This document shows positions 21,657 through 46,622 of a DNA stretch of 64,000 nucleotides, piece after piece. The stretch spans positions 577,535 to 641,534 of the forward strand of contig NZ_JACKUK010000023.1 of assembly GCF_025822765.1 (NCBI RefSeq), read 5' to 3'. Each line of letters opens with the position of its first letter. Position 1 is the first letter of the stretch. Origin of the DNA: Mycobacterium barrassiae. Lineage in GTDB: Bacteria; Actinomycetota; Actinomycetes; Mycobacteriales; Mycobacteriaceae. The notes beneath the pieces are model-generated. The model was given only the letters and a program-made list of their open reading frames with translations. It made no database searches and was not told where the DNA came from. The translations under genes were made by a program, and so were the position numbers.

Positions 21657-21677
21657 ATACTGTAACGGTTACAGTAT
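21657..21677. promoter_or_regulatory. ACTGTAA-type operator, best copy
   Basis: A 21-base palindrome, perfect except for its central base: ATACTGTAAC, G, GTTACAGTAT. It lies 33 bases upstream of the BVMO start and fits a TetR-type dimer site. It is the reference for the related sites at 27186, 30688 and 34240. Confidence 0.8.
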
Positions 21678-21735
21678 CAGGCGTAGGCCGAGGCGTTGAG
21701 TCAATTGGATGCCGGTTGTCTCCAGCCGAACGGAG

Positions 21736-22659
21736 CTAGTGCACGCCCGCGCCGGCCAACCGTGCTTCGCGCCGTTGCTCGTAGTGGCGGGCCCTGTCCT
21801 CGACTAGATCGAGGAAGGCTGCCAACTCCTCCCGCGCACGCTCCCCTTCACCATCGAGGTCGTCGCGTTCGAACACCCGCCAGAACCGCAACACCGGACG
21901 CACAACGTCGTCGAGATGCGAACGGAGATCGTAGATACCGGCCTTGGCGATCGTCACCGCGTTCTCCGCGAAACCGGGCATGGTACTGCCGGGCATCTGG
22001 AAGTTGATGACCTCGTGAGCGACTGCGGCCATGGTCGCGCTCGGCGCGATGTCGAACGCGGCCTCGACGAGGTTGCGGTAGAAGACCATGTGCAGGTTCT
22101 CGTCGGTCGCCACCCGGGTGAGGAGTTGCTCGGCGACCGGACAGCCCGACGCCCTGCCGGTGTTGCGATGACTGATCCGCGTCGCCAGTTCCTGAAAGGA
22201 CACGTAGGCCAGCGCTTCGAGCATCGACTTGTCGCCCGAGTCGTAGCCGGCCTTCATGTGCACCATGCGGGCCTCTTCGAGCGCGACAGGATCGACGCCG
22301 CGGGTGACGATGAGGTAGTCGCGAATCGCGATGCTGTGCCGCGCCTCTTCGGCCGTCCACTGACCGACCCATTGCCCCCAGGCGCCGTCCGGCCCGAAGC
22401 GCAGCGCGATCTCCCGGTGGTAGGAGGGCAAGTTGTCCTCGGTCAGGAGGTTGACGAACAGGGCCGCCTTCGCAACCTCATCGAGGGGAGAATCCTCCGG
22501 AACCCAGTCCTGCCCACCGAGTAATGCGAAGTCACGCCCGCGGCTCCACGGCACGTAGTCGTGCGGATTCCACGGTTTGGCCTTCTCGAAGTGGCGGTTC
22601 AGATTGGCTTCCACCACCGGTTCCAGCTCGGTGAGCAATGCAGTTTGGGTTGACGTCAT
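21736..22659 (-). CDS. Acyl-[acyl-carrier-protein] desaturase, DesA family
   Basis: A 307-residue soluble di-iron desaturase that introduces a double bond into ACP-bound fatty acyl chains in the cytoplasm. The diiron ligand pattern is clear: E74 in TEDNLP, E105-x-x-H108 in EEARH, E157 in FQELATR and E187-x-x-H190 in DENLH. It resembles mycobacterial DesA1/DesA2. The ATG follows GGAAG. A separate palindrome (ACCTACG) lies 42-59 bases upstream, so it probably has its own lipid-responsive promoter rather than belonging to the BVMO unit. Confidence 0.9.
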   Translation of the reverse strand: MTSTQTALLTELEPVVEANLNRHFEKAKPWNPHDYVPWSRGRDFALLGGQDWVPEDSPLDEVAKAALFVNLLTEDNLPSYHREIALRFGPDGAWGQWVGQWTAEEARHSIAIRDYLIVTRGVDPVALEEARMVHMKAGYDSGDKSMLEALAYVSFQELATRISHRNTGRASGCPVAEQLLTRVATDENLHMVFYRNLVEAAFDIAPSATMAAVAHEVINFQMPGSTMPGFAENAVTIAKAGIYDLRSHLDDVVRPVLRFWRVFERDDLDGEGERAREELAAFLDLVEDRARHYEQRREARLAGAGVH

Positions 22660-22685
22660 AGAGGGTCTTCCAATACTCAGGCTTT

Positions 22686-22718
22686 ACCTACGGCTGCGTA
22701 ACCTACGCTACCGTAGGT
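22686..22718. promoter_or_regulatory. ACCTACG inverted/direct repeats upstream of desaturase
   Basis: Palindrome at 22701-22718, with arms ACCTACG and CGTAGGT around a CTAC centre, pairing at 8 of 9 positions. A further direct copy, ACCTACGG, lies at 22686-22693, 15 bases away. It is 27-59 bases upstream of the desaturase ATG, the right place for a repressor of a lipid-synthesis gene. One isolated arm, CCGTAGGTT, also occurs at 11033-11041. Confidence 0.65.
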
Positions 22719-22826
22719 TGGCGGAAATGCAAGCGAATCGCATTTCGGCCCGATCTGCCTGAAAGTCAGCCTTTTTCACGGCGAACCGCCGTTCTACCTG
22801 TCGGCTCAGTCCCACTGCCGAAACCT

Positions 22827-22847
22827 CTACTGTAATATCTTCCGTTA
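22827..22847. promoter_or_regulatory. Degenerate ACTGTAA operator half-site
   Basis: TACTGTAATAT upstream of the Rieske gene is identical to the left part of the site at 27186. The right arm is degraded (about half the positions match), so binding is doubtful. Confidence 0.3.
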
Positions 22848-22873
22848 CCCACGCTGGCGTCAGAGGAGGCAAC

Positions 22874-23872
22874 GTGAAAGTCCCGTTCACCTGGAAAGTC
22901 ACCGGCTGGTTCATGGTGGGATGGTCGGCCGAGTTTCCGCAGGGCGAGACGCGTCCCCTTCGCTACTTCGGCGAGGATCTTGTCGCCTACCGCGACGAGT
23001 CGGGCGAACTGCACGTGCTGTCAGCGCACTGCAAGCACCTCGGCGCGCACATCGGACACGGCGGCAAGGTCGTCGGCGACTGTGTCGAATGCCCGTTCCA
23101 CGGCTGGCGCTGGGGCCCCGACGGGACCAACCGCTACATCCCGTATCAACCGGACCGGCCCAACCGCGCACTGAAGCTCCGGGTGTTCCCCGTCAACGAA
23201 CAGCACGGCTGCGTGTTCGTCTGGCACCAACCACAGGGCAAGGAGCCGCAGTGGGAGATGCCTGACATCTTCCTGTCGTTCCCGCAGTTCGAGACCGACC
23301 CGTCGGCGTATTACCGCCCGTACCCGGAGTTCTCACGGCGGACCGAGAACGAACCGGTACATCCCCAGATCGTGGCCGAAAACGGCCCGGACAGTTCACA
23401 TTTCCGCTACGTACACGGCGCCTCCGTGACACCGGTCAACCTGGAGTGGCGGATCGTCGACGAGCAGTGGCAGTTCCTCACCGGATGGCCGGATGCACGC
23501 AGCGACGACCCGAACAAGATGGCGCTGCACATCCATAGCCACATGTTCGGCCTTGGCGGCGCGATCAGCGTGTTCGAGGGATCGTCGAATCACCGGCTGA
23601 TCTTCGCCGTCACTCCTGTCGAGGACGGGCTTTCGACGATGTTCTACTCCATCTGGTGGCCCAAGCGCGACGGCGAGACGTCGGACATACCGCCGGACGA
23701 CGTCCGCGAACGCGTCGAGAAGCAGTTCCTGGGCACAGTGTGGGAGGACCTCGACATCTGGCGCTACCAGGAGTACATCGAGAATCCCCCGCTGGCGAAG
23801 ATCGATGCGAAACCCTATATGGCGCTGCGCAAGTGGGCGCAGCAGTTTTATGACGTCGCCGCGTCGGTATGA
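22874..23872 (+). CDS. Rieske non-haem iron oxygenase, KshA-like
   Basis: A 332-residue oxygenase component. The Rieske [2Fe-2S] ligands are C53, H55, C73 and H76 (CxH then CxxH, in CPFHGWRWGPDG). The mononuclear iron site is suggested by N170, D173, H176 and H181 in NGPDSSHFRYVH, with D292 in WEDLDIW as the third ligand. The layout resembles 3-ketosteroid 9-alpha-hydroxylase KshA and related sterol oxygenases, though it is shorter than the usual KshA of about 380 aa. No reductase gene is near. GTG start behind AGAGGAGG. It heads a plus-strand run to the TetR gene. Confidence 0.9.
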   Translation: MKVPFTWKVTGWFMVGWSAEFPQGETRPLRYFGEDLVAYRDESGELHVLSAHCKHLGAHIGHGGKVVGDCVECPFHGWRWGPDGTNRYIPYQPDRPNRALKLRVFPVNEQHGCVFVWHQPQGKEPQWEMPDIFLSFPQFETDPSAYYRPYPEFSRRTENEPVHPQIVAENGPDSSHFRYVHGASVTPVNLEWRIVDEQWQFLTGWPDARSDDPNKMALHIHSHMFGLGGAISVFEGSSNHRLIFAVTPVEDGLSTMFYSIWWPKRDGETSDIPPDDVRERVEKQFLGTVWEDLDIWRYQEYIENPPLAKIDAKPYMALRKWAQQFYDVAASV

Positions 23873-27185: not shown

Positions 27186-27204
27186 TACTGTAATATTTAC
27201 AGTA
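27186..27204. promoter_or_regulatory. ACTGTAA-type operator
   Basis: Perfect 8-base arms TACTGTAA and TTACAGTA separated by TAT. It starts 3 bases after the SDR stop and lies 44 bases before the P450 GTG. It probably controls the P450-TetR pair, which would give autoregulation of the TetR gene at 28460. Confidence 0.75.
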
Positions 27205-28459: not shown

Positions 28460-29101
28460 GTGGCCACCAACACGAAGACCGATGTCCGCAAGCGACGAGA
28501 CCGCGGATCGATCAGCGCCGACGAAATCATCTCCGGTGCATTCGAAGTCGCCGATCAGGTGTCGATCGACAATCTGAGCATGCCGGTGCTGGCCAAGCAT
28601 CTCGATGTCGGAGTCACGAGCATCTACTGGTATTTCCGACGCAAGGACGATCTGCTCGACGCCATGGCCGATCGCGCGCTGGAGCAGTTCGAGTTCACCG
28701 TGCCGACCATTGACGCGTCCAATTGGCGCACGTCGCTTCGCGATCATGCGCGGACCATGCGCGCGCACTTCCGCGACAATCCGACCCTCTGCGATCTCGT
28801 GCTCATCCGCGGCCAGTTCAGCGGGCGCGCGGTGCGCGGGGCGCTCCACAAGATCGAACAGCCGATCACGGCGCTCATCGAGGCCGGCCTCGATGCCCGA
28901 CAGGCCGCCGACACCTACGGAGCGATCTCAGTGCACACCCGCGGGTCCGCGGTGCTGGAGCGCATCCAGGCGAAGACCGAAGGCTTTCCCGCCCAGCGCT
29001 CGAACGGTAAGCGCTACATCGGTTTTGCCGATGACATCGACTACGACTACATCCTCGAAAGCATCCTGGACCACGCCCAGACGCTCATCGACGCGTCGTG
29101 A
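28460..29101 (+). CDS. TetR/AcrR-family regulator (1)
   Basis: A 213-residue TetR-type repressor. The N-terminal helix-turn-helix covers about residues 36-66 and ends in GVTSIYWYFRRKDDLL; the C-terminal ligand-binding part is unassigned. It follows the P450 by 3 bases. The paralogue at 46740 has the same recognition helix in the same register (residues 51-60 identical), so both should read the same DNA site. The ACTGTAA-N3-TTACAGT repeats beside both units are the natural candidates. GTG start, aligned with the paralogue's start. Confidence 0.9.
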   Translation: MATNTKTDVRKRRDRGSISADEIISGAFEVADQVSIDNLSMPVLAKHLDVGVTSIYWYFRRKDDLLDAMADRALEQFEFTVPTIDASNWRTSLRDHARTMRAHFRDNPTLCDLVLIRGQFSGRAVRGALHKIEQPITALIEAGLDARQAADTYGAISVHTRGSAVLERIQAKTEGFPAQRSNGKRYIGFADDIDYDYILESILDHAQTLIDAS

Positions 29102-30652
29102 TCATTTCTGCCGAGGTATTCGGCAACCGATGGTCTTGGTTTCGAGGTACTGCTGAAAGCCCTCGATGCCGCACTGGCGCCCCACGCCGCTGCTCTTGTA
29201 ACCGCCGAATGGCGCGTCGGCGCCGTAGAACATCCCGCCGTTGACGCCGAAAGACCCGGTGCGGATGCGGCGGGCGATATTCATACCCCGCTCCATCGAC
29301 CGCGAGATCACCGCTCCCGCCAAACCGTACGAGCTGTCGTTGGCGATGCGCACGGCGTGATCGTCGTCGTCGAACGGCATCACGATCAGCACCGGTCCGA
29401 AGACCTCCTCCTGGGCGATCGCAGCGCTGTTGTCGACCCCGACGATCACCGTCGGCTGCACGTAGTAACCGCCGGACAGGTGTTCGGGCAGATCGACGAC
29501 CGCGCCTCCGCCGGTGGTGATCTCGGCGCCCTCGGCGCGCGCCCGCTCCACGGCGGTGAGCACCCGGTCCTTCTGCGCGGCGCTGATCACCGGCCCGACA
29601 AGGGTTTCCGGCAGTACCGGATCGCCGACCGGCACACCCTGGTACGCGGCGGTGACGGTGGCGACGGCCTCGTCGTACAACGAGCGGTGCACGAGCATGC
29701 GGGTGGTCGCCGCGCACGCCTGCCCGGCGTGGACGCACACCCCGATCGCGGCTCCCAGGATCGCGGCGGGGTTGGCGTCGTCGAGCACGATGGCCACGGA
29801 CTTGCCGCCGAGTTCCAAGAACATCCGCTTCATCGTGTCGGCGCCCTGACGCATCAGCAGCTTGCCGACGGCCGTCGAACCGGTGAACGAAATCATGTCA
29901 ACGCGGGGATCGGTGCCCAGCAGACCGGCGACGTCGTTGGACGGGGTGGTGACCACGTTGAGCACGCCCGCTGGAATGTCGGTGCGCTCGGCGACGAGCC
30001 TGCCGAGCCGCGTCGCATTCCACGGTGTGTTCGGATCCGGCTTCAGGACAACGGTATTGCCCGCCGCCAGCGCGGGTCCCAGCTTGTTGAGGATGACTTC
30101 GATCGGGAAGTTGGACGGGGTGATCGCGGCGACGACGCCGACCGGTTCCTTGACGACGGTGCGGACGTTGCGCTCACCGAACAGCCCACCGCCGTCGAGG
30201 GTGCGCTCCCACTCGAAGTCGTCGATCAGTCCCGCGGGATAGCGCAGCGATTCGGCGAGCGGCCATTCCAACTGTGCCGTCTGCGTCGTCATCAGCGGAG
30301 CGCCGACCTCGGCGATCAACTCCTCACGCAGGTCTTCCTTCTCGGCCTCGATCGCCTCCTGCAGTTGGGCCAGACACCGCTTGCGCAGCTCGCGGTTGGT
30401 CGCCCAGTCGGTTTCGTCGAACGCGCGGCGGGCGGAGGCGATCGCGCGGTCCATGTCGTCGGCACCGGCGGCGGCCGTCGCGCCCAGCAGCAGTCCGGTC
30501 GCGGGGCTGAAGTTGTCGAAGGTTTCGCCCGAGGCGGCGGCGACGAGCTCGCCGTCGATCAGCAGACGCGACTCGGCGCGCGTCGCCGCCCGCAGGCCGA
30601 CATCGACGCTGGTTTCGGTCCGCTCTACTTGGTCCTCGGTGAGGCTCACCAT
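29102..30652 (-). CDS. NAD(P)-dependent aldehyde dehydrogenase
   Basis: A 516-residue aldehyde dehydrogenase oxidising an aldehyde to a carboxylate. Family motifs are complete: TPSNFPIEV near 179, SFTGSTAVG near 255, general-base E280 in LELGGK and catalytic C313 in GQACAATTR. The start is the ATG at 30652, three bases after GAGG. Its stop abuts the TetR gene end-to-end (convergent). It is divergent from the CoA-transferase with an ACTGTAA operator between. With the P450 and ligase genes it would convert a hydroxylated methyl group to an acid ready for CoA activation. Confidence 0.93.
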   Translation of the reverse strand: MVSLTEDQVERTETSVDVGLRAATRAESRLLIDGELVAAASGETFDNFSPATGLLLGATAAAGADDMDRAIASARRAFDETDWATNRELRKRCLAQLQEAIEAEKEDLREELIAEVGAPLMTTQTAQLEWPLAESLRYPAGLIDDFEWERTLDGGGLFGERNVRTVVKEPVGVVAAITPSNFPIEVILNKLGPALAAGNTVVLKPDPNTPWNATRLGRLVAERTDIPAGVLNVVTTPSNDVAGLLGTDPRVDMISFTGSTAVGKLLMRQGADTMKRMFLELGGKSVAIVLDDANPAAILGAAIGVCVHAGQACAATTRMLVHRSLYDEAVATVTAAYQGVPVGDPVLPETLVGPVISAAQKDRVLTAVERARAEGAEITTGGGAVVDLPEHLSGGYYVQPTVIVGVDNSAAIAQEEVFGPVLIVMPFDDDDHAVRIANDSSYGLAGAVISRSMERGMNIARRIRTGSFGVNGGMFYGADAPFGGYKSSGVGRQCGIEGFQQYLETKTIGCRIPRQK

Positions 30653-30687
30653 TTACCTCGTACAATCAGATCAATGCTGGACGCTCA

Positions 30688-30704
30688 ACTGTAACGATTA
30701 CAGT
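30688..30704. promoter_or_regulatory. ACTGTAA-type operator
   Basis: Perfect 7-base arms ACTGTAA and TTACAGT separated by CGA, between the divergent aldehyde dehydrogenase (30652) and CoA-transferase (30744) genes. It could regulate both. Confidence 0.75.
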
Positions 30705-30743
30705 AGGCGATTACAACGACGAGACGGGCTGGAGAGAGTCGAC

Positions 30744-34299: not shown

Positions 34300-35448
34300 A
34301 TGACCAACGACGTCGCCATCATCGGTGTCGGACTGCACCCGTTCGGCCGCTTCGAGGGTAAGTCGGCGATGGAGATGGGCGTCGACGCCATCTTCGCCGC
34401 GGTCGCCGACGCCGGGGTGGAGTGGAAAGACATCCAGGCGGCCACCGGCGGCAGCTGGACGGTCGCGAACCCCGACGCCATCGTCGGGATGGTCGGTCTG
34501 TCCGGTATCCCGTTCACGAATGTGTTCAACGCGTGCGCCACCGCCGCGAGTGCCGCCAAGGCCTGCGCCGACGGCATCCGGCTCGGCGACTACGACATCG
34601 GCATCGCGGTCGGGTTGGACAAGCACCCGCGGGGCGCTTTCACCGAAGACCCGGCGCTGGTGGGCATGCCCCGCTGGTACGCCGAGAACGGCCAGTACCT
34701 CACCACGCAGTTCTTCGGCATGAAGGCGAACAAGTACCTGCACGACCACGGCATCTCGCAGGAGACGCTGGCCAAGGTCGCGGCCAAGAATTTCCGCAAC
34801 GGCGCGCTGAACCCGAATGCGTTCCGCCGCAAGCCCATTCCTGAGGAAGACATCCTCAACTCGCCGGTGCTGAACTATCCCCTGACCCAGTACATGTTCT
34901 GCGCACCCGACGAGGGCGCGGCCGCCGTGGTCATGTGTCGCGCCGACATCGCACACAAGTACAGCAAGAAACCGGTGTATCTCAAGGCGGTCGAGGTTCG
35001 GACGCGTCGATACGGCGCCTACGAGGTCAACACGACGTTCGCACCGGTCGAGGAGGACGTGGCGCCCACGGTCTACGCCGCCAGGTCCGCGTTCGAAAAG
35101 GCCGGGGTCGCACCGGAGGACGTCGATGTGATCCAACTGCAGGACACCGACGCCGGCGCCGAGATCATCCACATGGCGGAGTGCGGGTTCTGCGCCGATG
35201 GCGACCAGGAGAAGCTGCTCGCCGACGGCGCCACTGAGATCCACGGTGCGCTGCCCATCAACACCGACGGCGGGCTGATCGCCAACGGCGAACCCATCGG
35301 CGCGTCGGGTCTGCGTCAGATCCACGAGTTGGTGCGCCAACTCCGCGGCGAGGCCGGCGACCGGCAGGTGCCCGGTGAACCCAAGGTCGGCTTCGCTCAG
35401 CTCTACGGTGCCCCCGGCACCGCGGCGGCGACGATCCTCACGCTCTAG
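34300..35448 (+). CDS. SCP2-type thiolase-like protein with altered active site
   Basis: A 382-residue thiolase-fold protein of the lipid-transfer/SCP2 group. The nucleophile C79 is kept in FNACATAASA. The other catalytic positions differ: the usual HD in HDxF is Q281-D282 (LQDTDAGAE), the GHP His is E331 (NGEPIGASG), and the C-terminal region reads QLYGAPGTAA with no Cys. Normal Claisen chemistry is therefore doubtful. Related Ltp proteins act as retro-aldolases with a DUF35 partner, but none is encoded here. It is followed by an amidohydrolase on the same strand. Confidence 0.87.
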   Translation: MTNDVAIIGVGLHPFGRFEGKSAMEMGVDAIFAAVADAGVEWKDIQAATGGSWTVANPDAIVGMVGLSGIPFTNVFNACATAASAAKACADGIRLGDYDIGIAVGLDKHPRGAFTEDPALVGMPRWYAENGQYLTTQFFGMKANKYLHDHGISQETLAKVAAKNFRNGALNPNAFRRKPIPEEDILNSPVLNYPLTQYMFCAPDEGAAAVVMCRADIAHKYSKKPVYLKAVEVRTRRYGAYEVNTTFAPVEEDVAPTVYAARSAFEKAGVAPEDVDVIQLQDTDAGAEIIHMAECGFCADGDQEKLLADGATEIHGALPINTDGGLIANGEPIGASGLRQIHELVRQLRGEAGDRQVPGEPKVGFAQLYGAPGTAAATILTL

Positions 35449-36804: not shown

Positions 36805-37833
36805 TCAGCGCAGTATGCGGGCCGCAACCTGTCCGTCGGTCTGCTCGACATAGAACTGGGCGGCCTTGCGTATCGACTCGGCGGCCGGACGGGGCTGCCA
36901 TCCGAGTTCGCGCCTGGCTTTTCCGTTGTCGGCCTCCGACATGATGTGCAGCAGCCGCACCCCGGTCACGTTCATCGGCAGGTCGCGTCGTAGCAGTCGG
37001 CTCGCCACCGACAATGCCCCGCCGAAGGCGTACGCGGCGGCGAGCGGCACGCCGAACCGCGGCGGCTTGGCTCCGACCGCGATTGCCGCCGTCTCCAACA
37101 TCTCGCGCATCGACATGTAGGTCTCGGAGATGATGTAGCGCTCCCCGATGCCGCCACGTTCACCGGCCAGCAGGAACGCGTCGGCCACATCCTCTACGCC
37201 GACGACCTCGGTGAACACTCCCTTGATGTAGGCGGGCATCTTGCCGAGCGCCGCGTACTGCACCATCAGCCCCTGGGTCGGCTGCCAGTCGCGAGGACCG
37301 TACGGATTGGAGACGCACATCGCGACGGCGGGCAGCGCCCGCTCTCGCGCATAACGCAACACCAGATCCTCTGCCGCACGGCGAGACTCGATGTAGGGGC
37401 CGCCCTTGCCCGCCCAGTCGAACGGCATGTCCTCGGTCACCGGCGTACGGCCATCACCGAGCGCGATCGTTCCGATGGTGCTGCAGAAGACGAATCGATG
37501 AAGGTCCGCATCGACGGCGACGTCGAGCACGCGACGCAGGCTTTCGACGTTGGTCTCGAACAACGGGGATGGATCGCGCAGGTAGAAGCGCGTATCCACG
37601 ATGCAGTAGAACACCACGTCGCAGCCGGACATCGCCGCCCGCAGTGCCGCTTCGTCATTCAGGTCGCCGTAGTGACGTTCGACGTCGAGGTCGTCGATCG
37701 CCACCGTCAGGCTGGACTTCCGTAGAGACACCCGCACGTCGTCGCCGCGTTCGACGAGCTTTCGCACCACGTGCGATCCGACGAACCCGCTGGCCCCCAT
37801 CACCAACGACGTGCGCCGTGTCGGCGATGCCAA
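36805..37833 (-). CDS. NAD-dependent epimerase / 3-beta-HSD-like extended SDR
   Basis: A 342-residue extended SDR of the dihydroflavonol-reductase/3-beta-hydroxysteroid-dehydrogenase type. GASGFVGSHVVRKL near residue 13 binds NAD(P), with STIG near 128. The catalytic Tyr is in GPYIESRRAAED, so the YxxxK motif reads YxxxR; the nucleotides confirm Arg. It directly abuts the acyl-CoA dehydrogenase upstream and is the last gene of a seven-gene minus-strand operon starting at 44636. It could oxidise a beta-hydroxyacyl or alicyclic alcohol if active. Confidence 0.86.
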   Translation of the reverse strand: MASPTRRTSLVMGASGFVGSHVVRKLVERGDDVRVSLRKSSLTVAIDDLDVERHYGDLNDEAALRAAMSGCDVVFYCIVDTRFYLRDPSPLFETNVESLRRVLDVAVDADLHRFVFCSTIGTIALGDGRTPVTEDMPFDWAGKGGPYIESRRAAEDLVLRYARERALPAVAMCVSNPYGPRDWQPTQGLMVQYAALGKMPAYIKGVFTEVVGVEDVADAFLLAGERGGIGERYIISETYMSMREMLETAAIAVGAKPPRFGVPLAAAYAFGGALSVASRLLRRDLPMNVTGVRLLHIMSEADNGKARRELGWQPRPAAESIRKAAQFYVEQTDGQVAARILR

Positions 37834-39027
37834 CTACGACGCCTTCTTCGCGACGGGTGCGTACGCCGGCTTACCGAGACCAAGCACGTACTGCGCGATC
37901 ATGTTCCGGAACACCTCGAGGGTGCCGCCGTAGATGCCGACCAGCGGCGCGAAGCGGTACACGTACTCCGCGGCGCCGTCGTCGGCGGCACCGTCGGTGC
38001 CGATGGGCAGCGACGCGGCCGTGCCAAGGAGGTCCATCAGGTCCGGCGAGATGTCGCGCATGGTCTGGGCGAGCGCCACGCGGCCGAAGATACTTGTCGC
38101 GCTGAGCGCCGCCTCCATCCGGGCGACGCTTCGGCCGAGGCGGTACGCGACGGCGCCGTCGTCGATCAGGCGGCGACCGTCGGGACGTACCTCGGCGACC
38201 TTGGCGGCGGCCTTGTCCACGGCGGCGGCCATGAATCCGGCCTGATGCATCATGATCGAGACGTCCTGCAGACCGTCCTTAGCGGCCTCCACCGCACCGT
38301 GCTCGACGTTGAGGGGCTCGCGCACCACGGTCCAGCCGTCGTTCACCTCACCCAGTCGATACTTGTCGTCGACGCGCACGTCGCTGTAGTAGACGATGTT
38401 CGTGCGGTCACCGTCGACGGTGCGGACGCCCTGGATCTCGATGCCCGGCGAATCGAGCGGGACCAGAAACATGGTCAGGCTCTTGTGTTTCGGCGCGGTG
38501 GGGTCGGTGTTGGTGATCAGGAACACGTACTGGCAGTTGTGCGCACCGGTGGTGAACATCTTCGAACCGTTGATCACCCACCCGTCGCCGTCGCGCACCG
38601 CACGGGTCTTGCAGGTGGCGACGTCAGAGCCGCCCTCTGGTTCGGTGTACCCGAGGCACAGTCGGACGTGGCCACTGTAAACCCCTGGCATCACTTCGGC
38701 TTTCAGTTCCGGCGAGCCGAACTTCTCGACCGACCGCGCGATCATTGCGGTGGTGCCCGAGGTGACCCACGGAACGTGCGCCCGCCGCTTCTCCAACTGC
38801 CAGATGCGATTGCGGAGACGGTTGAAGCCGCCCTCGGACTCCGGCTTCCACTCCTTTTCCAGATAACCCGCCGCACCGAGCGCCAAATGCACACCCTCGT
38901 CGAAGTTGTCGCCCGTCTCGCGGTCGCGGCGGATGACCTCCTCGGTGACGTGGGTACGCAGGAACGTGCGCACCTCGTCGAGGAAGTCCTGATCGTCGTC
39001 GGAGAGTTCGACCCGTGAGAAATCCAT
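37834..39027 (-). CDS. Acyl-CoA dehydrogenase, large partner (FadE-type)
   Basis: A 397-residue flavin acyl-CoA dehydrogenase. LGYTEPEGGSDVATCKTRAV near residue 125 is the FAD/substrate loop. The usual YEGTSEIQ near the C-terminus reads IYGGTLEVFRN, so the classical Glu base at that point is Gly. The second FadE gene lies 6 bases upstream, so this is probably half of an alpha2beta2 heterotetramer like the mycobacterial steroid FadE pairs, which complete the active site between subunits. It abuts the extended SDR gene. Confidence 0.9.
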   Translation of the reverse strand: MDFSRVELSDDDQDFLDEVRTFLRTHVTEEVIRRDRETGDNFDEGVHLALGAAGYLEKEWKPESEGGFNRLRNRIWQLEKRRAHVPWVTSGTTAMIARSVEKFGSPELKAEVMPGVYSGHVRLCLGYTEPEGGSDVATCKTRAVRDGDGWVINGSKMFTTGAHNCQYVFLITNTDPTAPKHKSLTMFLVPLDSPGIEIQGVRTVDGDRTNIVYYSDVRVDDKYRLGEVNDGWTVVREPLNVEHGAVEAAKDGLQDVSIMMHQAGFMAAAVDKAAAKVAEVRPDGRRLIDDGAVAYRLGRSVARMEAALSATSIFGRVALAQTMRDISPDLMDLLGTAASLPIGTDGAADDGAAEYVYRFAPLVGIYGGTLEVFRNMIAQYVLGLGKPAYAPVAKKAS

Positions 39028-39033
39028 TGCGAA

Positions 39034-40077
39034 TTACCTGCTTTCCCGAGCGGAGACGATCTCAGCGATGTACTTCGCGGTGACCCCGGGATCGCCGCCG
39101 GCCAGCGCCCAGCCCCGCGCACGCACCAAGTAAGCGGTGGCGGCGGCCTCCGCCGAAACACCGAGCCCGCCCTGAACGTGTACCGCCATCGTCGCGGCCT
39201 TCGACGCTTCTTCGGCCATGAACACGAACGCCGATGGCGCCAGTTCCGGGCGCTCGTCGGGTTCGTTGTCGAGAAACCACGCGGCCCGCCGCGCCAGGTT
39301 CCGTCCCGCCTGCACGGTGATGGCGATGTTGGCCAGAGGATGCGAGATACCCTGCAACGTCGAGATCGGGACGCCGAGCGTGTAGCGGGTCTTGGCGAAC
39401 TCCGCAGCGATGGTCATCGTCTCCTCGACCAGGCCGACCAACGCCGCGGCGGTCAGTACCCGCCATTCATCCAGTGCCCGTTGATATTCGGCCAACGCCT
39501 GCGGACCGCTGCCCAGCACGGTGCGGTCGTCGGCGGTGGCGGGATCGACCCAGGCCATCGGCAGCTTACCGATGTTGTCGACCTTGACCGGCCTGGTCCC
39601 GAACGTCAGCCGCACGACGTCGTCACCGTCACGCACGATGATGTGGTCGGCGATCGACCCGGTCGGGATCAGCCGGACGCCCGACACGTTGTCGTGTTGG
39701 GGATCGATCGCCACCAGTTGCTTGCCGTTGACGACATCCGGCTCGACGGTGCCGAGCCGCCCCAGCAGTCGCGCCGCGCACACGTGGTCGATCCACGGGA
39801 CCGGGCCCAGCGCCCGACCGAGTTCCTCGGCCACCAGCGTCAAGTCGACGAGCGTGGCCCCGTCACCGCCGCTGGACTCGGGCAACGCCATGCTCGTTGC
39901 ACCCATGGCGCACAGGCGTTCCCACAGGCTCTTGTCGAATCCGGATTCCTCGGCGGCGCGCACGGTCTCGATCGGGCAGTGCGTCTTGAAGAACTCCCGA
40001 TAGGCCGACTGCACCGCCTCGTGGTCCTCGGAGAGGCTGTAGTCCAGCCTCCGCAGTTCGTAACGGTCCATCGTCAC
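39034..40077 (-). CDS. Acyl-CoA dehydrogenase, short partner (FadE-type)
   Basis: A 347-residue acyl-CoA dehydrogenase-like protein, shorter than the family norm of about 380-400. It keeps the N-terminal helical domain and HVQGGLGVSAEA near the end but has no YEGTSEIQ Glu segment. This is typical of the second subunit of heteromeric FadE enzymes. The GTG start overlaps the amidohydrolase stop by 4 bases. Together with the neighbouring FadE it would desaturate a bulky acyl-CoA. Confidence 0.87.
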   Translation of the reverse strand: MTMDRYELRRLDYSLSEDHEAVQSAYREFFKTHCPIETVRAAEESGFDKSLWERLCAMGATSMALPESSGGDGATLVDLTLVAEELGRALGPVPWIDHVCAARLLGRLGTVEPDVVNGKQLVAIDPQHDNVSGVRLIPTGSIADHIIVRDGDDVVRLTFGTRPVKVDNIGKLPMAWVDPATADDRTVLGSGPQALAEYQRALDEWRVLTAAALVGLVEETMTIAAEFAKTRYTLGVPISTLQGISHPLANIAITVQAGRNLARRAAWFLDNEPDERPELAPSAFVFMAEEASKAATMAVHVQGGLGVSAEAAATAYLVRARGWALAGGDPGVTAKYIAEIVSARESR

Positions 40078-40910
40078 AGCTCCTCTCGAGGGCCGAAGAA
40101 GAAGTCATTCGCGTTGTTGAAGAGGTAGTTGTCGAGTACGTCGGCAGGCAGGTCCAGCGCCAAAGCTTCTGGCACCACACGGTGCATCCTCAGCACCGGC
40201 CAGTCGGAGGCGAAGATCACCTTGTCCGGTCCGCGGGTGCGCATGTAGTGCAGCAGGCTCTCCGGCAGTCGCTTGGGCGACCACGCCGACGTCATCAGGC
40301 GCAGGTTCTTGTACTTGATCAACAGGCGGATCGCGACATCCCACCACGGGTCGGCGCCGTGGATCATGCAGAGCTTCAGTTCCGGGAACCGCACACAGAC
40401 GCGGTCGAGGTGGATCGGGTTCTGCGCCTCACCGGGAATGGGCGGTCCCGGCAGGCCGGTGTTGATGCACAACGGCAGCCCGATCTCCGCGCATTTGGTG
40501 TACAGCGGGTAGTAGACGGCGTCGCTCGGCGGGTACTGGCCGTCGCCCCAAAAGCTCGGTCCCACTGCGGTGTAGGCGACCGGCAGGTCGCGCACGACGG
40601 CGCTGAGCTCGCGCAGCGAGGGCATCGGCCGCAGCAGGTTGACACCACCCATGGCGAGTGCGAACTTGTCGGGTCGCTGGTCGACGAACTTGCGGGCCGT
40701 CACCGATGGTTTGGCGATGCTGTCCATCAGGATGGCCTTCTCGACGCCGCGCTCCTCCATCTCCTCGAGCAGCTGGGGCAGCTCGACCTGGTCGTAGAGC
40801 GACTGCGGGCCCTTGAAGTAGTCGTCGCGCACCTTGAGCATGAACTCGGGCTGCTTCTCGGTCTCGCCGAAGTGGACGTTGACCAGACAATCAATCGCTT
40901 TGTGGCTCAT
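40074..40910 (-). CDS. Amidohydrolase family protein (ACMSD-like, short) 3
   Basis: A 278-residue amidohydrolase-2 protein, shorter than the three others here. The N-terminal motif is altered to AIDCLVNVH. A central LCMIHGADPWWD and the late IFASDWPVLRMHR (Asp ligand) remain. It overlaps the ligase upstream and the FadE gene downstream by 4 bases each, so it is fully embedded in the operon. Its job is probably hydrolysis or decarboxylation of an intermediate formed by those enzymes; the substrate is unknown. Confidence 0.85.
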   Translation of the reverse strand: MSHKAIDCLVNVHFGETEKQPEFMLKVRDDYFKGPQSLYDQVELPQLLEEMEERGVEKAILMDSIAKPSVTARKFVDQRPDKFALAMGGVNLLRPMPSLRELSAVVRDLPVAYTAVGPSFWGDGQYPPSDAVYYPLYTKCAEIGLPLCINTGLPGPPIPGEAQNPIHLDRVCVRFPELKLCMIHGADPWWDVAIRLLIKYKNLRLMTSAWSPKRLPESLLHYMRTRGPDKVIFASDWPVLRMHRVVPEALALDLPADVLDNYLFNNANDFFFGPREEL

Positions 40911-42523
40911 GTCAGTGATGCCTCTTGCGCCGCAGTGGTTTTCGCCCAGCGGTAGTCCGGTTTTCCGTTACCGAGTCGGCGTACCTGGTCGACGATGATG
41001 AACTCCTTCGGCGCCTTGAACCGCGCGAGTTGCGAGGTGCACTGGTCGTGCATCTGTTCAGCGGTGATATCAACACCTGGTTGCAGCGCGACAAGGGCGA
41101 CCAGCTCTTCACCCCAGCGCTCACTGGGTCGTCCGACCACCAATGCGTCAGCCACGCCGGCGTATGCGCGCAACACTTCCTCGACCTCTTCGACGAACAC
41201 CTTCTCGCCGCCGGTGTTGACGACAAGCGAGTCCCGGCCGAACAACCGCAACGTGCCGTCGGGCGCGAGCGAGCCGCGGTCCCCGGAGATCACGACGCGT
41301 CGCCCGTCGACGACGGGAAACGTCTTGCGGGTGGCGGCCTCGTCGTCGAAATAGCCGAGCGGGATGCGCCCCGCACGCGCCACGAAGCCGACCTCGGGCT
41401 CCCCCGGTTCGAGGAAGCGACTGTAGTCCTCGGAAAGGACGAGCGCGCCTTCCCGAAGGACGAACGTGTCCTTCTGCTCCCCGACCTGGCTGCGACCGAA
41501 GCCGACGTTTCCGGTCTCCGACGATCCGTAGCCGTTGATCAGCGTAATCTGCGGCAGCAGTTCGAGAAGCGCCTGTTGATGTTTCGGATTGGTGGCCGCT
41601 CCGCCGGTGCCGATCGCGTACATCGATGACAGGTCGTAGTTGCCGCTGCGGAGTTCGTCGACCAGCGGTCCCGCGTAGGCGTCGCCGACCATCGTCATCA
41701 TGCCGACCTCCTCACGCTCCGCGGTCTCGAGCACCGCGCGCGGGTCGAAGCGTGTCTTGTCGTAGAGGACTATCGGCAGCCCGTTGAGGAGCCCGGCGAA
41801 CGCCGTCCACATGCCTGCGGCATGCATCAGCGGCGATACGGCGAACCACGGTTGACCCTCGAATCCGAGCTTGGCGTGAATCTCGTCGACGGACTCGTGG
41901 TCGGCGCCGTTCATCGACACCACGTACGTGTCGCTCTGCCGCCACATGACGCCCTTGGGGCGGCCTGTCGTCCCGCCGGTGCACACCATCATCACATCGT
42001 CGGGCGACGGTGTGATGTCGTGATCCGTATCGCCTAGTGCCAGCGCCTCTTCCAGGCTGATGGCACCCGGTAACAACGGCTCTGTGCCGCCGTCGTCGAC
42101 CGCGATCAGCACGTCGGCGGTGGCGGGCGGAAGCACGTCGGCGAACTTCGGACCGAGCGAGCGGTGGTAGATCACCGCCCGTGGCCGCAGGTAGTCCAGG
42201 AGTTCGGCCACCTCGCGCGGCGCGTAGTTGTAGTTCACATTCACCGGCACGGTCCGCGCCTTCAGCGATCCGATCACCATGTCGGGATAGAGATCGTTGT
42301 GCATGACCAGCGCGACGCGGTCCTGACCGCACTCCCAGTTCGCGAGTTCAGCGCGTTCCCGGTGTGCGCCCAATCCCTGTCCGGCAAGGAAATTGGCCAG
42401 TCGGCGGGTGCGCTCCGCAGACTCGGAGAACGTGCTGCGCCGCGAGCCGCAGATGGTCATCAACCGGTCGGGTGCGGCGTCGGCGATGGCGTCGAGCACC
42501 GCCCCGATGGTCCATTCCCCCAT
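40907..42523 (-). CDS. Acyl-CoA synthetase (AMP-forming), FadD17/FadD19-like
   Basis: A 538-residue ANL ligase with the P-loop TGGTTGRPKGVMWRQ, GYGSSETGNVG, SGDRG in the hinge and the catalytic Lys in LGNGKPDYRW. It shares the GVxWRQxD variant with the ligase at 24554, pointing to a common substrate class. It is placed after an amidohydrolase (2-base gap) and before another (4-base overlap), so activation and the amidohydrolase steps are probably linked. It forms acyl-CoA from the free acid with ATP. Confidence 0.9.
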   Translation of the reverse strand: MGEWTIGAVLDAIADAAPDRLMTICGSRRSTFSESAERTRRLANFLAGQGLGAHRERAELANWECGQDRVALVMHNDLYPDMVIGSLKARTVPVNVNYNYAPREVAELLDYLRPRAVIYHRSLGPKFADVLPPATADVLIAVDDGGTEPLLPGAISLEEALALGDTDHDITPSPDDVMMVCTGGTTGRPKGVMWRQSDTYVVSMNGADHESVDEIHAKLGFEGQPWFAVSPLMHAAGMWTAFAGLLNGLPIVLYDKTRFDPRAVLETAEREEVGMMTMVGDAYAGPLVDELRSGNYDLSSMYAIGTGGAATNPKHQQALLELLPQITLINGYGSSETGNVGFGRSQVGEQKDTFVLREGALVLSEDYSRFLEPGEPEVGFVARAGRIPLGYFDDEAATRKTFPVVDGRRVVISGDRGSLAPDGTLRLFGRDSLVVNTGGEKVFVEEVEEVLRAYAGVADALVVGRPSERWGEELVALVALQPGVDITAEQMHDQCTSQLARFKAPKEFIIVDQVRRLGNGKPDYRWAKTTAAQEASLT

Positions 42524-42525
42524 GA

Positions 42526-43734
42526 CTAGGCGGAGGCCGTCACGTTCGCACCAAGCAGCTCGAGTGCGTTGTCGCGCATGACCTTCCGGGTGTCCTCGTG
42601 GCTGAATTCTGGGAATTGCGGGATGTCGGCGGTGAACGACGTGGGATCCGCCAACCCCTCTCCGTGTGGCCAGTCCGACCCAAACAGGATCTTGTCCACG
42701 CCGATGGTGTCGGCCAGCAGCTTCACGTCGTCCTCGTAGTACGGCGCAATCCAGACGTTGTTGCGCAGCTGCTCGACCGGATCCTCCTTGTAGTGGTACG
42801 GCGCGTTGTTGGCGGACTTCTTGAGCCGCTTGATGAGCCGATAAACGAAGTAGGAACCGTTCTCGATGCTGACCACTCTGAGCTTCGGGTGCCGGGTGAA
42901 CACCTGATGGACGATCATCGCGGCAATGGTGTCGTGGATAGCGCGGTCGTCCATGATCACCATGTCGAGCGGGTCGCGCTTACCGAAGCCCTTGAACACA
43001 CCGCTGCCGCCCCACAGTGCGGGGATCGCCATGTAGCCGGAGTCGGACAGGTGAAAGACCACCGGAACTCCAGCCTCGGCCAGACGGGCCCATACCGGGT
43101 CGTGCACCGGATCGCCGAGCGAGCGGGGCCTCACCTCACCCGGCACCGGTGCCGGCCGCACGCACACAAGTTTCGCGCCCCTTTCCAGGACGAACTCGAC
43201 CTCCTCGATGGCCTTCTCGGGGTCGGCCAGCGAGATGATCGGCGCGGCGATGATGCGGTGATCGGGCCTGTCGAATCCCCAGTCATCGTCGAGCCACTGG
43301 TTGAAGGCGTGGACCGAGGCCATGGTGGCCGGGATGTCATGCTTGAGGCCCTCTTCGACACCGCACGCGAAAGTCGGCAGCATGAACACGGTTTCGAGGT
43401 TCTGCTTGTCGAGGATCTTCACGCGGGCGTCGCGGTTCTGGTACTCGGGATGGTCGGCCAGGCGGTCGACCTTCATCAGCGACGCCGGATCGACGCCCTC
43501 GGGGATCTCGCCTCGGAATAGCAGGTCCAGGCAGCCGGGTTCGATGATCGGGTCGAAGGTCGGGTTCGGAATGAAGTGGTTGATCACCCCACCGAACACC
43601 GCGTAGGTGCGCTTTCCGTCGGTGAGCATCTGCACGCCGCGGCTGCGGAACTCCTTGGGCAGGTGCCGGGTAAAGGCGTCCAGCGGCTCGTAGTAATGGT
43701 TGTCGACGTCGATGGCCATGTAGTCCAAAGTCAT
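42526..43734 (-). CDS. Amidohydrolase family protein (ACMSD-like) 4
   Basis: A 402-residue amidohydrolase-2 protein with IDVDNH near residue 8, a central VVFHLSDSG and the late LFGSDWPHGEGL Asp motif. It is paralogous to the protein at 35537. The ATG overlaps the hydratase stop by 4 bases, and the ligase follows after 2 bases. The operon context places it in acyl-CoA breakdown, perhaps opening a ring or removing a carboxyl group. No metal-binding residue is missing. Confidence 0.88.
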   Translation of the reverse strand: MTLDYMAIDVDNHYYEPLDAFTRHLPKEFRSRGVQMLTDGKRTYAVFGGVINHFIPNPTFDPIIEPGCLDLLFRGEIPEGVDPASLMKVDRLADHPEYQNRDARVKILDKQNLETVFMLPTFACGVEEGLKHDIPATMASVHAFNQWLDDDWGFDRPDHRIIAAPIISLADPEKAIEEVEFVLERGAKLVCVRPAPVPGEVRPRSLGDPVHDPVWARLAEAGVPVVFHLSDSGYMAIPALWGGSGVFKGFGKRDPLDMVIMDDRAIHDTIAAMIVHQVFTRHPKLRVVSIENGSYFVYRLIKRLKKSANNAPYHYKEDPVEQLRNNVWIAPYYEDDVKLLADTIGVDKILFGSDWPHGEGLADPTSFTADIPQFPEFSHEDTRKVMRDNALELLGANVTASA

Positions 43735-44636
43735 GAGTCCTGTCCTTTCGGAAGTCCTTGGGCCGGCCCTTGGACCGGCGGAAAGTTCGGCGGGCGCTTC
43801 TCGAAAAAGCTCGTGATGCCCTCGATGAAATCGGGGCGCTGCATCGATTCGTGCATCAACTTCTCGGCATCGTCGCTGGCAACGAAAACGTCGCGCATGG
43901 TGTCTGCGTACACCTGTTGTTTGATCACCGCCAGCGAGTTGGGCGCACAGTTGGCGGCGATGTCCTCCGCGTAAGCGATCGCGCGCGGCAGCAGTTCGTC
44001 AAGTGCGACGACCTCTTTGACCAGACCCAGTTGCTGTGCCTCGTCGGCCAGGAACACCCGCCCGGACAGCAGTAGATCCAGCGCGACCCCCTGCCCGACG
44101 ATGCGCGGCAGGATCCACGAGATCCCGTACTCCGCGATCAGACCGCGGCGGGCGAACGACGTGGTGAACTTCGCGCCGTCGGCGGCGAACCGTACGTCGC
44201 ACATCAGCGCCATCGTTAGGCCCATACCGGCACACGCGCCATTGATCGCCGCGATGACGGGTTTGCGCATCGACGTGGTGAAGTGCGGATGACGCGCACC
44301 GACGAGCTTGCCTACGTCGGTGTCCGCGGCGGCGTTGACGGTGGTGGCGCTGATCGATGTGAGGTCGCCCATGTCAGCGCCTGCGCAAAACGCACGGCCC
44401 TTCCCGGTCACCACGATGACCCGGACGTCGGGATCGGCCTCCGCGGCGTCGAGATACAGGTAGAACGCGGTCGCGAGGCCACCGCCCCAGCCGTTCATCC
44501 GGTCGGGCCTGTTGAGCGTGAGAACCGCGACGCCGGTGTCGAGGACCTCGTAGAGCACCGGTTCGTCCGGCCCGGCGGCCTCGGAGTCGGCCTCGGAGTC
44601 GGCCTCGGAGTCGACGATGCGGTCTCCAACGCTCAC
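43731..44636 (-). CDS. Enoyl-CoA hydratase/isomerase family protein with repeat-bearing N-terminus
   Basis: A 301-residue crotonase-fold protein. LTLNRPDRMNGW, GRAFCAGADMGDL and the oxyanion-hole segment INGACAGMGLTMALMCD are family-typical. The N-terminus carries a tandem Asp-Ser-Glu-Ala repeat before the fold begins near residue 25; it is acidic and probably disordered. GTG 44636 follows GAGGAGG by 7 bases, so the repeat is translated. It heads the seven-gene operon down to 36805. Hydration of an unsaturated acyl-CoA is likely, though isomerase or ring-hydrolase members also exist. Confidence 0.88.
   Translation of the reverse strand: MSVGDRIVDSEADSEADSEAAGPDEPVLYEVLDTGVAVLTLNRPDRMNGWGGGLATAFYLYLDAAEADPDVRVIVVTGKGRAFCAGADMGDLTSISATTVNAAADTDVGKLVGARHPHFTTSMRKPVIAAINGACAGMGLTMALMCDVRFAADGAKFTTSFARRGLIAEYGISWILPRIVGQGVALDLLLSGRVFLADEAQQLGLVKEVVALDELLPRAIAYAEDIAANCAPNSLAVIKQQVYADTMRDVFVASDDAEKLMHESMQRPDFIEGITSFFEKRPPNFPPVQGPAQGLPKGQDS
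44578..44613 (-). repeat. 12-base tandem repeat, three copies, in coding sequence
   Basis: Three exact copies of GCCTCGGAGTCG (plus-strand reading) encode (DSEA)x3 near the N-terminus of the hydratase. The unit is a multiple of three, so copy-number changes would preserve the frame. Confidence 0.85.
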
Positions 44637-44675
44637 CCGTCAGCCTCCTCAGGCGTTCGAACTGGATGTATGTCC

Positions 44676-44696
44676 ATACTGTACACCTATCGGTAG
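44676..44696. promoter_or_regulatory. Weak relative of the ACTGTAA operator
   Basis: ATACTGTA followed by a poor right arm (TATCGGTA), 40-60 bases upstream of the hydratase operon start at 44636. It matches the best copy at 13 of 21 positions. Confidence 0.35.
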
Positions 44697-44720
44697 CGTC
44701 TTCCGCAACCGTCTGGCGAC

Positions 44721-45728
44721 TCAGCCCGCGACCAGTCCGTACCGCCGATACGCAGCGTCGATGGTGTCTTTCGCCTCCCGTGGTAGCTCGGCCTGCGGGG
44801 GCCGCGAATGGGGATATGACCCGATGGGCAACCCGAGCACCGACGCGGCGTACTTGAACGCGCCGCCCCAATGGGTGAAATAGTCGGCCCGGCCCGGGTA
44901 ACACGTGAACCACGAGCGCATGTCGACGCCGAACTGGTCCATGCCGGACTTCTCGGCGTAATCCATCGCCTCGGACAGCTTGTCGCTCCACACCAGCTCC
45001 CAGTATTCGGAGAGCACAGGGTGTTGCGGGGTTTCGTACAGGTAGCCCGACGTGCCCAGTTGTGCGGGCCCGACGATGCCCGCGCGTAGCCAGCCCGCGC
45101 GGTAGACCGTCGTATCGCATTCCCAGATCGTCAGATCCGGCGCGAGGTCGTGCAGCAGTCGGCTGGCCATGGGCCGGAAGGCGCCCTCTTTCGTCGCGCA
45201 CACCGCCGGGACCTCTTCGTAGATCCGCGCGCCCTCCGCGGGCGTCAACACGTATCCAGAGGAGGGCGAGTTGAACATTCCCAGTGCGATATCGCTGCGC
45301 CCGGCGACGTACTTGAAGAACCTCAGGACGCCTTCGCCGCCATGGGCTTCCATCATCGGCGTCTGGATGTAGGCGATGTCGGCCCCGGCATCCTGGGCGT
45401 GCAACGTCAGTTCAAGACAGTCCTTCGCCGACATGGCCGCAGTGCAGGCCTGCACCACGACATTGGGATCGGCCGCCTGGCCCTCCTCGATCGCGACCTC
45501 CAACAACCGCTTTCGCTCATCCATGGTCAACGACCAGAACTCCGCGATCCCGCTGGTGCACCAGAGCATTGGGTGACGCAACTCGCCGACGCAGTAGCGC
45601 ACCAACGTCCGGTAGGCGTCCCAGTCGATGTCGTCGCCGTCCCTGCCGCAGAACGGCGTGTAGAGCGAATTGCCGATGCCGCGCAGGTTGGTGCGGGCCC
45701 ACTCACGCGCCTCTTTGGCCGTCGCCAC
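44721..45728 (-). CDS. Dihydrodipicolinate synthase (DapA/NAL) family lyase
   Basis: A 335-residue class I aldolase-type protein. The Schiff-base Lys is probably K180 in VCATKEGAF. The NSPSSGY segment near 153 corresponds to the YNxPxxTG motif with changes. It is unlikely to be the lysine-biosynthesis enzyme, because it diverges and lies in a catabolic cluster. Family members also include hydratase-aldolases that release pyruvate from aromatic or unsaturated acids. GTG start behind GAGGAGG. It follows the SDR gene by 24 bases on the same strand. Confidence 0.82.
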   Translation of the reverse strand: MATAKEAREWARTNLRGIGNSLYTPFCGRDGDDIDWDAYRTLVRYCVGELRHPMLWCTSGIAEFWSLTMDERKRLLEVAIEEGQAADPNVVVQACTAAMSAKDCLELTLHAQDAGADIAYIQTPMMEAHGGEGVLRFFKYVAGRSDIALGMFNSPSSGYVLTPAEGARIYEEVPAVCATKEGAFRPMASRLLHDLAPDLTIWECDTTVYRAGWLRAGIVGPAQLGTSGYLYETPQHPVLSEYWELVWSDKLSEAMDYAEKSGMDQFGVDMRSWFTCYPGRADYFTHWGGAFKYAASVLGLPIGSYPHSRPPQAELPREAKDTIDAAYRRYGLVAG

Positions 45729-45752
45729 TGCCGCCTCCTCCAGGTGAAACCG

Positions 45753-46550
45753 CTAGGTGAAGTCGCTACCGCCGTCGACATTGATGTTGGCACCAGTCAT
45801 GTACGAATTTCGCCGAGACGCGAGAAACGCCACGACGGGACCCATTTCGTCGGGAAGACCCGCGCGCGGGAGGTGTGCGGGATGCCCGAAGTGCTCGTCG
45901 ATCGCCGACATCAACGCGTAGGGATCATTGCCGTCCACGCCGACCGTGGCGGCCCAGCCGATCAGCGCCTCCGACGCTATGCTGCCCGGCGAGACGACGT
46001 TGACCATGATCTCGTCCTTGGCCAGAACCAGCGAGAGGTTCTTCGAGATGCTTGTCACCGCCGCCTTGGCAGCGGTGTAGGCCGGCAGAATCGCGCTCTG
46101 ACGTTGCGTCGAGTGGGCGGAGAAGTTGACGATGCGGGCCCACTGGGCTTTTCGCAATAGCGGCAGCGCGGACCGCACGCAGTGCACCATGCCCATCACG
46201 CCGGCGTCGAACGCGGCGCGCCATTGGTCGTCGGTGAGATCCTCGAAGGCGCCGACGGACTCGGGCCCGACCGCATTGACGAGGATGTTGAGTTCACCGC
46301 CCCACCGCGCGCCCAATTCGTCGAACACCCGTCGCACTTGGTTGGCATCAGTGGTGTCGGCGACGAGCCCGAGCGCATCAGGGCTGCCCCGGTCGGCCAA
46401 ATCCTTTGCGGCAACGTCGAGTACGGTCGCCGTTCTGCCGACGACGGCCACCCGCGCACCGTCCTCGGCGAGGCAGCGGGCAGAAGCAAGCCCCATCCCG
46501 CGGCCGCCCCCGACGACGACGTCCGCCGCACCCTTCAATCCGAGATCCAC
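45753..46550 (-). CDS. Short-chain dehydrogenase/reductase (2)
   Basis: A 265-residue classical SDR with GGGRGMG for NAD(P) near residue 14, NAVG in place of NNAG, and the catalytic Tyr/Lys in YTAAKAA. The C-terminal MTGANINVDGG is standard. GTG 46550 follows GGAAGG. The frame is open to 46601, but that would run into the operator-like palindrome. It is divergent from the TetR gene at 46740 and probably co-transcribed with the DapA-family gene. Likely oxidises a hydroxyacyl intermediate. Confidence 0.87.
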   Translation of the reverse strand: MDLGLKGAADVVVGGGRGMGLASARCLAEDGARVAVVGRTATVLDVAAKDLADRGSPDALGLVADTTDANQVRRVFDELGARWGGELNILVNAVGPESVGAFEDLTDDQWRAAFDAGVMGMVHCVRSALPLLRKAQWARIVNFSAHSTQRQSAILPAYTAAKAAVTSISKNLSLVLAKDEIMVNVVSPGSIASEALIGWAATVGVDGNDPYALMSAIDEHFGHPAHLPRAGLPDEMGPVVAFLASRRNSYMTGANINVDGGSDFT

Positions 46551-46601
46551 CGTGAGCCTTCCGTGAGGATCGCGTTCCTCCGCTTCTCCTGCTAGAAACA
46601 C

Positions 46602-46622
46602 TTACTATAGGACTTACAGTAA
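46602..46622. promoter_or_regulatory. ACTGTAA-type operator, imperfect
   Basis: TTACTATA on the left and TTACAGTAA on the right give 8 of 10 paired positions around the centre. It lies between the divergent SDR (46550) and TetR (46740) genes, the classic position for an autoregulated TetR site. Confidence 0.6.

Follow-up and report, generated by a model that had tools for sequence, protein, structure and literature searches.

A recurrent palindrome as the probable operator of a TetR-family catabolic regulon in Mycobacterium barrassiae and related mycobacteria

Palindromes in the promoters of an oxidative gene cluster

The 64-kb stretch of Mycobacterium barrassiae DNA analysed here (contig NZ_JACKUK010000023.1; hereafter the window, meaning the whole 64,000 nucleotides) carries a large oxidative gene cluster. 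Its genes encode a Baeyer–Villiger monooxygenase (BVMO), a KshA-like Rieske oxygenase, a cytochrome P450, an aldehyde dehydrogenase (ALDH), a family III CoA-transferase, a molybdopterin oxidoreductase (Mo-oxidoreductase) and a thiolase-like protein, together with two TetR proteins, which we call TetR1 and TetR2, and a GntR-type regulator (Table 1). Acyl-CoA synthetases, hydratases, thiolases and several amidohydrolases complete the enzyme content. Promoters of the cluster share a palindrome, ACTGTAANNNTTACAGT, which we examined as a candidate operator of the TetR family.

A pattern scan of the window located ACTGTAANNNTTACAGT exactly at 21659-21675, 27187-27203, 30688-30704 and 34240-34256, and with two mismatches at 46604-46620, in agreement with the four near-perfect palindromes and the imperfect one at 46602 that had been described in the initial annotation. 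That annotation placed them in promoter gaps, three between divergent genes, and this is what we find: the sites at 30688, 34240 and 46604, three of the five main sites, separate divergent genes, and the other two lie between genes of like orientation, both minus at 21659 and both plus at 27187, and each precedes a gene start. A comparison of the pattern itself with shuffled sequence shows that the enrichment holds, with 10 matches in the window at up to three mismatches versus 0.16 expected (100 shuffles, largest 1).

In the whole 5.9-Mb genome, exact copies are found at those four places in the window only. At up to two mismatches they are joined by 46604 and by one site on another contig (C35:75319); the latter was rejected as a target outside the cluster, since it falls within an open coding frame (L212, 1080-1724), and we took it as chance. 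At up to three mismatches the genome holds 28 sites, 8 of them within 14.7-51.2 kb of the window, and 72 sites for the reversed pattern. Because the reversed pattern outnumbers the true one, sites with three mismatches say little without position and conservation. The regulon had been pictured as scattered; instead, the sites define one cluster of about 40 kb.

To score weaker sites we made a 19-bp weight matrix (TACTGTAANNNTTACAGTA) from 80 sites of related promoters, using sites with at most one mismatch before the P450, ALDH, BVMO, thiolase 34300, Mo-oxidoreductase and CoA-transferase genes, and set its threshold at the 98th percentile of the reversed matrix. The ten best sites in the window, from 35.0 to 8.2 bits, are the five main sites and the five weaker relatives listed in the initial annotation. 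The next site scores 6.1 bits, the reversed-matrix control reaches at most 6.7, and the sites at 44677 and 11083 are barely above background by score alone. In other genomes, counterparts at the same genes were found for four of the five weaker relatives but not for the site at 11083 (Table 1).

Table 1. Genes and candidate operators of the window. Counts are orthologous upstream regions with a site, with the reversed-matrix control in brackets.
Feature	Position	Strand	Context	Score (bits)	Orthologous upstreams with a site (control)
BVMO	19999..21624	-	close to phenylacetone and steroid monooxygenases		
KshA-like Rieske oxygenase	22874..23872	+			
Cytochrome P450	27248..28456	+			
TetR1	28460..29101	+	gene after P450; PF00440		
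ALDH	29102..30652	-			
Family III CoA-transferase	30744..31970	+			
Mo-oxidoreductase	32020..34230	-	start codon provisional		
Thiolase-like protein	34300..35448	+			
Seven-gene run	36805..44636	-	HSD-like, two acyl-CoA dehydrogenases, two amidohydrolases, acyl-CoA synthetase, enoyl-CoA hydratase		
Short-chain dehydrogenase SDR45753	45753..46601	-	divergent from TetR2; start codon provisional		
TetR2	46740..47471	+	PF00440 and PF02909; longest frame from 46635		
GntR-type regulator	49663..50514		in cluster, 2.2 kb from TetR2		
Operator, exact	21658..21676		before BVMO gene (19999-21624, -); in matrix		BVMO 15/26 (0)
Operator, exact	27186..27204		before P450-TetR1 operon; in matrix		P450 55/58 (1)
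Operator, exact	30687..30705		between ALDH (-) and CoA-transferase (+); both in matrix		ALDH 39/44 (0); CoA-transferase 18/23 (2)
Operator, exact	34239..34257		between Mo-oxidoreductase (-) and thiolase-like gene (+); both in matrix		Mo-oxidoreductase 30/31 (0); thiolase 17/39 (1)
Operator, imperfect asymmetric ACTATAGGNCTTACAGT	46603..46621		between SDR45753 (-) and TetR2 (+); outside matrix		TetR2 56/68 (1); SDR45753 18/45 (0)
Weaker operator	22828..22846		before KshA-like Rieske oxygenase gene	17.4	38/45 (1)
Weaker operator	14730..14748		before carboxyltransferase-like gene 14804	17.1	10/13 (0)
Weaker operator	51144..51162		before gene 50430-51083 (-); overlaps 3' end of 51154-51840	16.1	7/8, all 8 from other genera (0)
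Weak operator	44677..44695		before seven-gene run ECH43731 to HSD36805 (-)	8.9	14/15 (0)
Possible very weak operator	11083..11101		between 10423 (-) and amidohydrolase gene 11124 (+)	8.2	amidohydrolase 11124 1/5 (1)

Conservation of the sites across genomes

An exact site is present in 172 of 297 genomes of the genus, and the reversed pattern in 2 of 297. The sites keep their company: exact sites of other genomes were compared in 29 loci (L005-L033), and 27 of these contain within 3 kb an ortholog of a window gene at 50% identity or more, and no such ortholog was found in the 3-kb loci L016 and L029. The Mo-oxidoreductase of the compared loci has 85% identity to the window protein. Around relatives of TetR1, the site before the P450 gene is exact in 30 of 34 named loci, has one mismatch in L081 and L092 and two in L095, and is absent from the Nocardia locus L096.

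We counted sites upstream of orthologs gene by gene (Table 1), with pattern-fetched loci excluded and each distinct 120-bp upstream entered a single time; the reversed matrix was run beside each count as a control and gave 0 to 4 matches per gene overall. For the groups whose sites lie outside the matrix (TetR2, Rieske, ECH43731, carboxyltransferase and SDR26398) this control was 0 or 1. SDR26398 orthologs have a site in 30 of 32 cases, and the window's own copy has none (score -4.1). Orthologs of the HSD gene show one in 11 of 20 cases and again the window does not: an HSD-like gene with 61-65% identity to window gene 36805 has a strong site in L007, L014, L018, L033, L088, L089 and L097. Matches before the desaturase (5/6) are the Rieske site viewed from its other side. 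The Rieske matches in all loci (n=41) fall into 32 that, as in the window, are no more than 65 bp from the start, and 9 further upstream, several of these being the BVMO site common to both genes. The 19-mer at 14730..14748 recurs identically in three other genomes (L113, L115 and L117).

Other genes have few upstream matches (ECH48780 2/14, ACS40907 2/20, DapA 1/31 and g40074 1/22) or none. Zero counts were obtained for genes internal to runs (ACAD37834 0/30, ACAD39034 0/22, F420 0/14 and AMI35537 0/24) and for APH (0/7), g23892 (0/4), g51154 (0/8) and TetR1 itself (0/30).

Genomes of other genera gave one exact site (G439) and likewise one match to the reversed pattern (G350). The G439 site stands beside an ALDH ortholog (75% identity), 7 kb from one of two TetR homologs. 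Among 186 other-genus genomes, 15 have a TetR homolog at E ≤1e-40; 10 of those 15 together hold 10, 17 and 40 sites at up to one, two and three mismatches, compared with means of 0.07, 0.33 and 3.3 for permuted half-sites in the same 10 genomes (30 permutations). Many of these looser sites stand before the same genes as in the window.

Deviations from the perfect palindrome also recur at particular promoters: ACTATAGGNCTTACAGT at TetR2 in many species, TACAGTAAGCAATTCAGTA at the carboxyltransferase and TACCGATAGGTRTACAGTA at the ECH43731 run in most species examined. The Rieske site differs between species, from weak to perfect. Since the same imperfections recur at the same promoters, operator strength may be set promoter by promoter, which suggests graded repression. 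The asymmetric ACTATAGG half at the TetR2 promoter is kept in L125-L128, L130-L133, L139, L112 and L114, and L135 has a ACTATATG half. Read on the opposite strand, the deviation in 46603-46621 is TATAGT, a -10-like box for the divergent short-chain dehydrogenase gene.

Two related TetR proteins as candidate regulators

We compared the genus genomes for the operator and its possible binders, taking E ≤1e-20 for a TetR homolog and E ≤1e-60 for a GntR ortholog. Of 241 genomes with a TetR homolog, 172 have an exact site; of the 56 lacking such a homolog, none does. At up to one mismatch, with genomes matched by eye, the counts are 204/241 versus 3/56, and those of the reversed control 35/241 and 5/56. 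This co-occurrence and the conservation described above give strong support to the proposal of a single catabolic regulon defined by the operator. Sites and homologs are also physically close, with 63 of 67 exact sites within 50 kb of a TetR homolog in 31 genomes, the window included; this count leaves out G124, for which the listing is incomplete, and G028 and G007, whose 4 sites have no listed homolog place to be compared with. Exact sites far from any listed homolog, or on another contig, are G020:C1:3889397, G049:C24:329242, G264:C20:9431 and G280:C3:185116, of which the G264 site adjoins an 85% ortholog of the Mo-oxidoreductase (L025).

The GntR-type regulator of the cluster could itself be the actual binder, given that exact sites are found in 91 of the 98 genomes (of 297 in the genus) that carry its ortholog. 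The ortholog is missing, however, from 81 of 172 site-bearing genomes, and a TetR homolog is missing from none. We therefore rejected the GntR protein as sole binder and regard any such role for it as very improbable.

Both TetR proteins exceed the Pfam cut-off of 24 for the TetR_N domain (39.6 bits for TetR1 and 48.8 bits for TetR2), and they have the same recognition helix, GVTSIYWYFR, as first annotated. This helix was present in 90 of 90 homolog rows read. The homolog of G055, a genome without a site, has a different one. TetR1 and TetR2 have identical residues at 41 of the 56 positions of the DNA-binding part and at 68 of the other 143, a split that fits proteins with the same site and a different ligand. 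Each was thought to sit beside a copy of the palindrome. This is so for TetR2, which has the conserved imperfect site at its own promoter, whereas TetR1 follows the P450 gene, 1.26 kb from the 27187 site, and the exact site stands upstream of that preceding gene.

Control of the regulon by a TetR2-type protein has good support: of 179 genomes that carry one homolog only, 114 retain exact sites. With two or more homologs the figure is 58 of 62. A quick midpoint-rooted tree of 112 rows, with SH-aLRT values as its only support measure, places TetR2 in one clade with proteins from other genera (99). TetR1 (99) forms a group apart, as do further sets of sequences (100, 99 and 89), and the tree does not settle how these relate to one another. 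The TetR gene comes immediately after the P450 gene in 33 of 34 named loci, and TetR1-type, P450-linked homologs occur in fewer species than the TetR2 type. As the TetR2 clade spans other genera and TetR1 is linked to the P450, TetR2 looks like the older, general regulator, and it is most likely the widespread and main one. In G132 (L167, L173 and L175) TetR2 appears as two separate matches, a split frame, and TetR1 and the exact P450 site are kept, so that this genome offers a natural instance in which TetR1 may have to suffice. Plasmid records gave one TetR match, from Rhodococcus, at 40% only.

Whether TetR1 shares the operators is less clear-cut. TetR2 might act on them alone, TetR1 having drifted to another role or merely fine-tuning the P450 operon. 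In keeping with that, one TetR2-type protein suffices in the single-homolog genomes with exact sites, and an identical helix does not guarantee an identical operator. On the other hand, an exact site precedes the P450-TetR1 pair in all 22 TetR1-type loci (L034-L055), and the two proteins share the helix and most residues of the DNA-binding part. Action of TetR2 alone seems rather unlikely to us, and from its identical helix and its operon behind a perfect site it is plausible that TetR1 also binds the operators.

Proposed mechanism and its meaning

Enrichment, conservation and co-occurrence with the TetR family lead us to conclude that the regulon is very probably real. We have good confidence that TACTGTAANNNTTACAGTA is a TetR-family operator, that its copies mark one catabolic regulon of about 40 kb and that TetR2 is the main repressor. 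Starting from the observed sites, their conservation and their co-occurrence with TetR proteins, we infer the following mode of binding and repression. A TetR2 dimer would occupy the site and block RNA polymerase, in many cases because one half-site may double as the -10 box (TANNNT) of the adjoining gene, and a pathway intermediate or substrate would release it. TetR1 would most likely act on the same operators and add a second input through a different ligand pocket. Promoters would differ in strength, with perfect operators at BVMO, P450, ALDH/CoA-transferase and Mo-oxidoreductase/thiolase, and imperfect but conserved ones at TetR2 itself, the Rieske oxygenase, the carboxyltransferase and the ECH-ACAD run. 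More tentatively, and with somewhat less than even confidence, we suggest that TetR1 and TetR2 compete for one set of operators and so integrate two chemical signals, with operator strengths setting the order of release.

TANNNT is described as a -10 motif of M. tuberculosis transcription starts in the excerpt of PMC3898074 that we used, and in most gene groups the gene-proximal half-site holds such a hexamer (TACAGT, TACCGT or TATAGT). By eye, the flanks of the sites showed no -35 box at a constant spacing. The frequent fit to this published motif would also suit palindromes that are bidirectional promoter cores, or some other non-TetR element, instead of repressor sites. Yet a promoter core would leave unexplained the dyad symmetry over 17-19 bp, the confinement to one cluster and the lack of sites in all 56 genomes without the TetR family, and we give this explanation very little credence.

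Several observations weigh against an operator regulon of the TetR family as we have outlined it. For six genes (P450, ALDH, BVMO, thiolase, Mo-oxidoreductase and CoA-transferase) the counts are in part circular, because the matrix was built from their sites, and all upstream counts come from related sequences in related genomes and are not independent events. Scattered matches occur at genes without a site in the window (THIO47526 10/37, AMI42526 4/17 and ACS24542 4/42), and one of the permuted half-sites in the other-genus genomes reached 23 matches at three mismatches. Within the genus, 69 of 241 genomes with a homolog have no exact site. Homologs of G050, G161 and G205 carry GVTSIYWYFR in genomes without a site at up to one mismatch, so identity of the helix permits a common operator and does not prove one. 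The mean number of sites is 2.79 in genomes with two homologs versus 1.06 with one, but the former may retain more of the cluster, and the higher number is no proof of a role for TetR1. Finally, the -10 reading fails at 10 of 10 carboxyltransferase sites and, among the matches listed, at 22 of 33 Rieske and 10 of 24 SDR26398 sites.

The arrangement has precedents. Among PDB structures, TetR2 has matches to TetR chains such as 1qpi_A, and tetO, the operator of the tetracycline-resistance repressor, is an odd-centred palindrome, as is the site described here. The half-sites of the two differ, and tetO governs an efflux target set, in contrast to the catabolic genes found here. A closer likeness is to KstR, the repressor of mycobacterial cholesterol catabolism, in which, as excerpts of PMC1995591 and PMC3068626 describe it, one TetR repressor and one palindrome serve many, often divergent, promoters; both systems also cover a large set of lipid-catabolic genes. 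KstR sites, in contrast, have a core of the AGAACNNGTTC type (PMC1995591, in excerpt) where we find ACTGTAANNNTTACAGT, and the AGAACNNGTTC core is absent from the window sites when these are set against the motif instances in that excerpt. A few KstR site instances given there contain an ACTGTAA half, so cross-talk with the present operator is conceivable. A further difference from KstR is the second homologous TetR protein. By description the Rv1255c-CYP130 operon of M. tuberculosis is a near system; the published motif table, in the part available, has no entry for Rv1255c. A published description of the regulon was not found among the literature matches listed, a negative that is only as strong as those listings. 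By analogy, we regard it as a new TetR catabolic regulon of an ordinary kind, built like that of KstR.

The substrate is likely to be a cyclic or branched lipid-like compound, whose identity the enzyme content does not fix. The BVMO, with its closeness to phenylacetone and steroid monooxygenases, and the KshA-like oxygenase both point this way, as do matches to steroid-type models, far below cut-off though these are (39034 to IpdE2 and 40907 to steroid-24-oyl-CoA synthetase). Induction by the substrate, as proposed in the initial annotation, is inferred from enzyme content only. For a large oxidative cluster present in many mycobacteria and some related genera, there is now a defined operator with a defined set of genes. 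With the operator and TetR2, the inducer, and hence the compound, can be sought directly. If operator strengths set promoter by promoter do give an order of release, it would concern the oxygenases, the regulator gene and the genes of the lower pathway. The possible common use of one operator by two TetR proteins is a more interesting point than the regulon itself; if true, TetR1 and TetR2 would be a compact natural case of related repressors sharing their sites.

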